This document shows positions 44,276 to 45,908 of a stretch of 64,000 nucleotides of DNA, piece by piece (positions within the stretch are counted from its first letter, which is position 1; each line of letters begins with the position of its first letter). Both the position numbers and the translations under genes were made by a program. A model generated the notes under the pieces. The model was not told where the DNA came from. It did no database searches and was given only the letters and a program-made list of their open reading frames with translations. The stretch spans positions 15,497,886-15,561,885 of the forward strand of contig WARS01000016.1 in assembly GCA_008933995.1 (NCBI GenBank), in the 5' to 3' direction. This DNA is from Datnioides undecimradiatus (lineage: Eukaryota; Chordata; Actinopteri; Lobotiformes; Datnioididae).

Positions 44276-44487
44276 CAGACGTGGACAAAATTGTTGGTAC
44301 CCCTCAGTTAAAGAAAGAAAGTCCACAATGCTCACTGAAATGACTTGAAACGTTCAAAAGTAACAATAAATCAAAATTTCTTGAAAATTAAATAATCAAA
44401 ATCAGCCATTACTTTTGAGTTGTTGATTAACATAATTATTTAAAAAAACAAACTAATGAAATAGGGCTGGACAAAAATGATGGTACC
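44276..44487 (+). repeat. Left terminal inverted repeat (212 bp)
   Basis: Reads CAGACGTGGACAAAATTG at its outer end and finishes in GATGGTACC. It holds an outer transposase-binding-type repeat GGACAAAATTGTTGGTACC (44,283-44,301) and an inner one GGACAAAAATGATGGTACC (44,469-44,487), which differ at 2 of 19 bases and start 186 bases apart. This is the IR/DR arrangement. Confidence 0.97.
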
Positions 44488-44489
44488 TC

Positions 44490-44602
44490 TATAAAAGACT
44501 GAAAACTAATTGCCCAGAGGGACATGATTAACTCAGGTGTGTCCTTTAATTGACATCACAGCTGTTTTCAAACTCATAATCAGTCAGTCTGCCTATTTAA
44601 AG
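44490..44602 (+). promoter_or_regulatory. Transposase leader with TATA-like boxes
   Basis: TATAAAAG at 44,490-44,497 immediately follows the left inverted repeat and TATTTAAAG lies at 44,594-44,602, 54 bases before the ATG. Either could serve as a TATA box. No intron is needed between here and the gene. Confidence 0.4.
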
Positions 44603-44655
44603 GGAGACAAATAGTCACTTTGCTGTTTGGTGAAAAGGTGTGTACCACACTGAAC

Positions 44656-45690
44656 ATGGACAACAGAAAGCGAAGGAGAGAATTGTCCCAGGACATTCGA
44701 AACAAAATTATAGACAAACATCTTAAAGGTAAAGGCTATAAAACCATCTCTAAGCAGCTTGAAGTTCCTGTGACAACAGTGGCACATATTATTCAGAAGT
44801 TTAAGACCCACGGGACAGTAGCCAACCTCCCTGGACGTGGCCGCAAGAGGAAAATTGATGACAAATTGAGGAGACGGATAGTTCGAACTGTATCCAAAGA
44901 GCCCAGAACAACCTCCAAAGAAATTAAAGGTGAACTCCTAGGCCAAGGTACATCAGTGTCAGATCGCACCATTCGTCGTTGTTTGAGCCAAAGTGGACTT
45001 CATGGGAGACGACCAAGGAGGACACCACTGTTGAAAGGAAATCATAAAAAAGCGAGACTGGAATTTGCAAAAATGCATGTTGACAAGCCACAAAGCTTCT
45101 GGGAAAATATCCTTTGGACAGATGAGACAAAACTGGAGCTTTTTGGTAAGGCACATCAGCTCTATGTTCGTAGACTCAAAAATGAAGCATACAAAGAAAA
45201 GAACACTGTCCCTACTGTGAAACATGGAGGAGGCTCAGTTATGTTTTGGGGCTGCTTTGCTGCATCTGGCACAGGGTGTCTTGAAGTTGTGCAAGGTAAA
45301 ATGAAATCTCAAGACTATCAAGGCATTCTGGATAGAAATGTGCTGCCTAGTGTCAGAAAGCTTGGTCTCAGTCGCAGGTCATGGGTCTTCCAACAGGACA
45401 ACGATCCAAAACACACAGCCAAAAACACCCAAGAATGGCTAAGAGAAAAGCGTTGGACTATTCTGAAGTGGCCTTCTATGAGCCCAGATCTGAATCCCAT
45501 TGAACATCTGTGGAAGGAGCTGAAACATGCCATTTGGAGAAGACACCCGTCAAACCTGAGACAACTGGAGCAGTTTGCTCATGAGGAGTGGGCCAAAATA
45601 CCTGTTGACAGGTGCAGAAGGCTCATTGACAAATACAGAAATCGTTTAATTGCAGTGATTGCCTCAAAAGGTTGTGCAACAAAATATTAA
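44656..45690 (+). CDS. Tc1-like transposase, 344 aa, intact
   Basis: Catalyses excision and TA-targeted integration of the element in the nucleus. The start chosen is the ATG at 44,656, the only in-frame ATG at the front, with A at -3 and G at +4. Residues about 8-50 form the first helix-turn-helix, residues 57-66 (LPGRGRKRK) a GRPR-like basic linker and probable nuclear signal, and residues 68-115 a second helix-turn-helix. The DDE domain follows: D156 in WTDETK, a Gly-rich box at 189-201 ([13 protein letters not shown]), D248 in QQDNDPKH and E283 in PIEHLW. D248 and E283 are separated by 34 residues, the DD34E signature of the Tc1 family. Length equals the usual 340 or so residues, and no stop or frameshift is present. 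Function of this copy is inferred, not shown. Confidence 0.97.
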
Positions 45691-45696
45691 GTTATG

Positions 45697-45908
45697 GGTA
45701 CCATCATTTTTGTCCAGCCCTATTTCATTAGTTTGTTTTTTTAAATAATTATGTTAATCAACAACTCAAAAGTAATGGCTGATTTTGATTATTTAATTTT
45801 CAAGAAATTTTGATTTATTGTTACTTTTGAACGTTTCAAGTCATTTCAGTGAGCATTGTGGACTTTCTTTCTTTAACTGAGGGGTACCAACAATTTTGTC
45901 CACGTCTG
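45697..45908 (-). repeat. Right terminal inverted repeat (212 bp)
   Basis: Exact reverse complement of the left repeat in my reading, with the inner binding-type repeat at 45,697-45,715 and the outer at 45,883-45,901. It begins only 6 bases after the transposase stop codon. Confidence 0.97.

Follow-up and report, generated by a model that had tools for sequence, protein, structure and literature searches.

The 64,000-nucleotide window, the whole stretch of DNA analyzed here, harbors a complete cut-and-paste DD34E/Tc1 vertebrate transposon with Sleeping Beauty-like IR/DR arms, whose family very likely burst in the very recent past and is probably still mobile. This reading builds on what was directly observed, namely the element's anatomy and intact coding, the number of copies and their near-zero private divergence, the target pattern, and empty sites at the exact positions on a second, near-identical contig; expression, the allelism of the two contigs concerned (C471 and C472), and present-day jumping are what we infer beyond these. 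An earlier note on the same DNA had described the element as intact and possibly mobile now, a proposal supported by at least 24 copies of 99-100% identity at separate TA sites, by only 1.25 private substitutions per copy, and by two exact empty sites on the probably allelic contig. The features of the window copy are as follows.

44276..45908, + strand: complete Tc1-type transposon, 1,633 bp (at least 24 full-length copies, 99-100%, in its own genome)
44274..44275, no strand: TA target-site duplication, left
45909..45910, no strand: TA target-site duplication, right
44276..44487, + strand: left terminal inverted repeat, 212 bp (212/212 bases equal to the right arm)
45697..45908, - strand: right terminal inverted repeat, 212 bp (212/212 bases equal to the left arm)
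44282..44301, + strand: outer direct repeat, left; putative transposase site
44468..44487, + strand: inner direct repeat, left; putative transposase site (GGTACC cores 186 bp apart)
45697..45716, - strand: inner direct repeat, right; putative transposase site
45883..45902, - strand: outer direct repeat, right; putative transposase site
44488..44655, + strand: 5' untranslated stretch; TATA-like words at 44490 and 44594 (word scan; putative promoter)
44656..45690, + strand: transposase ORF, 344 aa; HTH_SB 6-55, HTH_Tnp_Tc3_2 72-143, DDE_3 152-304
45121..45123, + strand: catalytic D156 codon
45397..45399, + strand: catalytic D248 codon
45502..45504, + strand: catalytic E283 codon

The boundaries at 44276-45908, the arms matching base for base, and the clean TA duplications that the earlier note had described all proved exact. 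The raw inverted-repeat match measures 215, since it runs past the true 212-bp arms through the TA duplication and a further base that matches by chance. Elsewhere in the window, perfect inverted repeats reach no more than 19 bp (low-complexity words excluded), three base shuffles of the window yielded perfect inverted repeats of at most 20, and the 212-bp arm match is far beyond chance. Each arm contains two of the four 20-bp direct repeats, whose GGTACC cores have the same 186-bp spacing on both sides, and the last base of the inner direct repeat is the very point where arm identity ends. Similar arm ends occur among fish Tc1 repeats. A second copy of the family was looked for in the 64,000-nt window, and none was found.

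The transposase ORF runs from ATG to TAA without a stop or frameshift, and 34 residues lie between D248 and E283, which with D156 gives the DD34E triad, all present as the earlier note had read them. In Pfam, HTH_SB, HTH_Tnp_Tc3_2, and DDE_3 each scored above the cut-off, and the catalytic part matched the Sleeping Beauty structure 5cr4 with E=2.4e-80, 127/228 residues being identical (55.7%). Three characters of the DD34E/Tc1 (Tc1/mariner) group were found, namely a TA duplication in the window copy and on both sides of 25/25 complete copies, inverted repeats (the 212-bp arms) enclosing one transposase gene of ~340 aa (344 aa), and an HTH DNA-binding domain together with a DDE domain with a D-E spacing of 34. 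The two direct repeats per long arm, to which the transposase would bind, place it in the IR/DR group. The element is an additional member of a well-known vertebrate Tc1 kind. Relatives were sought in viral contigs and other genome contigs, using both the protein and the arm pattern, and in phages and plasmids; none were found, which says little because vertebrate genomes are not among these. Literature searches with arm or protein strings returned no match save one unrelated paper; the family may nonetheless have been described already.

Elsewhere in the window, a hAT-like remnant at ~59876-60546 has the inverted ends TAGGGATGTCCCGATC and GATCGGGACATCC; at 60193-60327 it contains part of a BED zinc finger, which scored above the cut-off in Pfam (zf-BED, E=2.1e-4). 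The window as a whole (1-64000) is short of CpG, with observed/expected values of ~0.18-0.27 in seven of the eight 8-kb blocks and 0.42 in the last, below the expectation for ray-finned fish; at 40061-40102, a 15-bp unit containing CpGs is repeated perfectly in tandem, 2.8 copies in all, within otherwise CpG-poor DNA. A Pfam scan of 137 of the 217 filtered window ORFs gave 12 families with one match each (best E 7.1e-5), none convincing, and the Rfam and coding-bias scans of the window gave nothing usable.

A search of the host's own genome with the element, as the earlier note had proposed, covered 581,297,614 bases in 497 contigs, and 40/97 candidates were scored, so that the counts are lower bounds. 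Among the 40 places retrieved (L009-L048), L009-L033 are 25 complete copies; leaving out L033, whose flanks are common to L032, gives an independent set of 24. These at least 24 full-length copies at separate sites share 99-100% identity, and besides them come less similar copies, full-length or long, at 80-96%, as well as partial ones, some of which reach 99-100% (L034, L038, L039). The copies are thus not equally diverged; equal divergence was the pattern that the earlier note had named as speaking against its proposal. An ATG, 344 codons without a stop, and the DD34E triad are retained in 19/24 independent copies, the other five having lost the start codon (L011, L013, L026), gained an indel (L020), or undergone both (L030). 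The targets follow an AT-rich palindromic pattern, with A at -3 in 21/24 copies and T at +3 in 21/24, in agreement with PMC9777934, where SB and ZB are described as preferring AT repeats.

It is extremely improbable that these near-identical copies arose from segmental or assembly duplication instead of transposition. The assembly does contain duplicate stretches (L032/L033, L040/L041, L046/L047), but the 30-bp flanks of the 24 copies are 24 different sequences on the left and 24 on the right, with TA in each pair, the flanks of L010-L018 occur at one place each in the assembly, and the left flank of the window copy has one full-length match there, with no second allele. Among the older copies, L046 (C20) and L047 (C17) are identical at 1,624/1,624 bases and their 1-kb flanks at just 95-97%, for which conversion or a duplicated stretch might be the explanation.

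Our comparison of the 24 copies revealed 30 private substitutions (1.25 per copy), including 22 transitions. No private substitution was present in 10/24 copies, the window copy among them, and L032 carried eight, six of which are clustered and perhaps represent alignment noise. At the rate of 4.13e-9 per site per year that PMC7913693 applies, the mean age is ~0.19 My; assumed rates of 2.2e-9 and 1e-8 give 0.35 My and 0.08 My, and all such private-substitution ages are low estimates, since a change common to two copies goes uncounted. Pairwise divergence averages 0.56% because 24 sites are common to two or more copies, and two pairs at different sites (L018/L019 and L022/L023) are letter-identical. 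Arm identity alone would bound the age just to ~0.7-3.2 My. The family has been mobile recently and perhaps still is.

The earlier note had taken the identical arms as a sign of recency, and while recency holds, arm identity is a weak clock. Perfect arms were present in just 3/25 complete copies (L009, L020, L030), L011 being one gap off, and the internally deleted L038 has perfect arms too. At arm position 77, young copies combine a left-arm T with a right-arm G in 8/24 cases and carry G in both arms in 16/24, position 97 varies together with position 77, and the older copies L042 and L044-L047 have T at position 77 in both arms. In a four-gamete test, 38/276 site pairs were incompatible, of which 22 involve positions 77, 94, or 97. 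These linked arm sites suggest that the arms have undergone conversion or sequence exchange, with arm-to-arm copying and between-copy exchange indistinguishable here, and perfect arms could therefore be restored and are weak evidence alone. We regard it as fairly probable that the arms are identical through one of these two routes and that their identity says little about insertion age, an interpretation tempered by the inseparability of the routes and by the ambiguous ancestry at position 97, where older copies have A, T, or C. The recency of the family is independent of the arms. Gene conversion between the arms, raised in the earlier note as a possible objection, thus finds partial support in positions 77/97 and the incompatible pairs, and recency survives it. 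The arm pattern serves as a warning against dating Tc1 copies by comparison of their two arms.

Evidence for polymorphism came from C471 and C472, contigs of nearly the same length (7,972,025 vs 7,967,159) that are collinear at the four places viewed. Matched stretches at ~2.5 and 7.85 Mb are 98.3-99.9% identical, the flanks at 3.72 Mb 99.9% identical, and 2 kb at 5.0 Mb likewise 99.9% identical. Judging by identity, length, and collinearity at these four places, the contigs are probably allelic, the simplest view being that they are haplotypes of the same region or else a pair of sex chromosomes; the alternative is that they are paralogous. Recent copies lie at three places on C471, and L032 is found on both contigs. 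The full-length L023 and the internally deleted L038, whose arms are identical, occupy C471 and are absent from C472, which at the exact L023 and L038 sites has a single TA and no footprint. These C472 sites represent the unoccupied state, not excision residue. The two insertions are therefore polymorphic, probably within the sequenced individual. The second-allele comparison covers the window copy, L010-L018, L023, L032, and L038; because the flanks of the window copy and of L010-L018 were each found at a single place, those copies provide no evidence of polymorphism.

Within the burst, the ORF variants comprise 22 replacement and 6 silent changes, a ratio in line with neutrality (p=0.53). 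Comparison of the window ORF with eight older copies gave pN/pS values of 0.41-0.45 for L042-L044, 0.54 for L045, 0.72 for L046, and ~1 for L036, L037, and L040. This pattern, which is not uniform, would fit a lineage kept functional between bursts while dead copies decayed. The replacement M1I is common to four sites (L011, L013, L026, L030), and the next methionine after the lost start is residue 140; these copies were therefore probably moved by the transposase of other copies, unless a non-ATG start is used. The four are separate insertions sharing R15Q besides M1I, and L026 has the other left-arm type.

On the model of Sleeping Beauty, the transposase would bring both ends of the element together via the four direct repeats and cut it out, and the excised element would be pasted at a TA within an AT-rich palindromic target, the step to which the observed target pattern corresponds. 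The donor gap could then be repaired from the sister or homologue, restoring the element, and the patterns of arms and deletions suggest that template switching during such repair may produce arm conversion as well as internal deletions (L033, L038). Several sub-lineages would have moved in parallel, with the start-codon-less sub-lineage at four sites probably moved in trans.

One reading that we find plausible, if still short of probable, is that a native vertebrate Tc1 family has been caught mid-burst and continues to transpose in the germ line; its intact copies would move the start-codon-less and internally deleted ones in trans, and template-switching gap repair would repeatedly homogenize the arms. 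If this is true, perfect arms would be maintained by the transposition cycle and would not simply mark youth. Alternatively, the burst may be recent but finished, the family having multiplied over about the past several hundred thousand years before becoming silenced or self-inhibited, so that the polymorphic insertions are drifting remnants; we view this as possible but somewhat doubtful. Private substitutions, though few, in 14/24 copies are consistent with a finished burst, as are the lost start codons and/or ORF indels in 5/24 and the replacement changes that build up without visible constraint, whereas the 10/24 copies free of private substitutions, the two letter-identical pairs, the two insertions on only one contig of the C471/C472 pair, and the intact ORF in 19/24 copies argue against it. 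The family, which we take to be probably still mobile, has 19 near-identical copies that are intact, as well as insertions on just one contig of a matching pair; it is a candidate natural system in which to watch a burst of a vertebrate DNA transposon, and it is a possible gene-transfer tool. Native vertebrate Tc1 elements with known activity are few, and the examples cited here are Passport and ZB.

Among known systems, Sleeping Beauty (PDB 5cr4, 2m8e, 5unk) shares IR/DR arms with two direct repeats each, the HTH and DDE domains, DD34E, and TA within an AT-rich palindrome. It differs in that just the 127/228 catalytic residues noted above are identical and that the window arm ends are unlike the SB-type primer in PMC4683633, which places the element outside the Sleeping Beauty clade proper. 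For orientation, PMC9777934 gives DDE domain identities of 68% for SB vs SB-like and 58-61% for SB vs ZB groups, with domain limits that may differ from those of our 55.7% figure. Passport/PPTN is likewise a native fish Tc1 element, and Passport is active in vertebrate cells (PMC1939997); the arm ends in the primers printed there are unlike those of the window element, which is thus not a Passport member. The salmonid long-ITR families DTSsa1, 4, 9, 10, SSTN1, Tss, and SALT1 resemble it in their ITRs of 199-244 bp (212 in DTSsa9), outer and inner direct repeats, and near-identical bursts, but end in CAGT where the window element ends in CAGA, the comparison otherwise being by description from PMC2198921. 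The literature also reports that many fishes carry intact relatives of ZB and SB (the survey PMC9777934), Tc1 transfers between lampreys and fishes (PMC3516227), and transcription of salmonid Tc1 (PMC1192797). For ZB (Tc1-8B_DR) of zebrafish, PMC7913693 describes 20 full-length copies of >99% identity, 19 being intact, together with TIRs that are 100% identical and activity proven in cells and animals, whereas the window family is a candidate for activity and is likened to ZB by description. Both are DD34E Tc1 elements of similar build, with 1,597 bp, 201-bp TIRs, and a 341-aa transposase in ZB vs 1,633 bp, 212 bp, and 344 aa in the window element, and their copy pictures are nearly alike.
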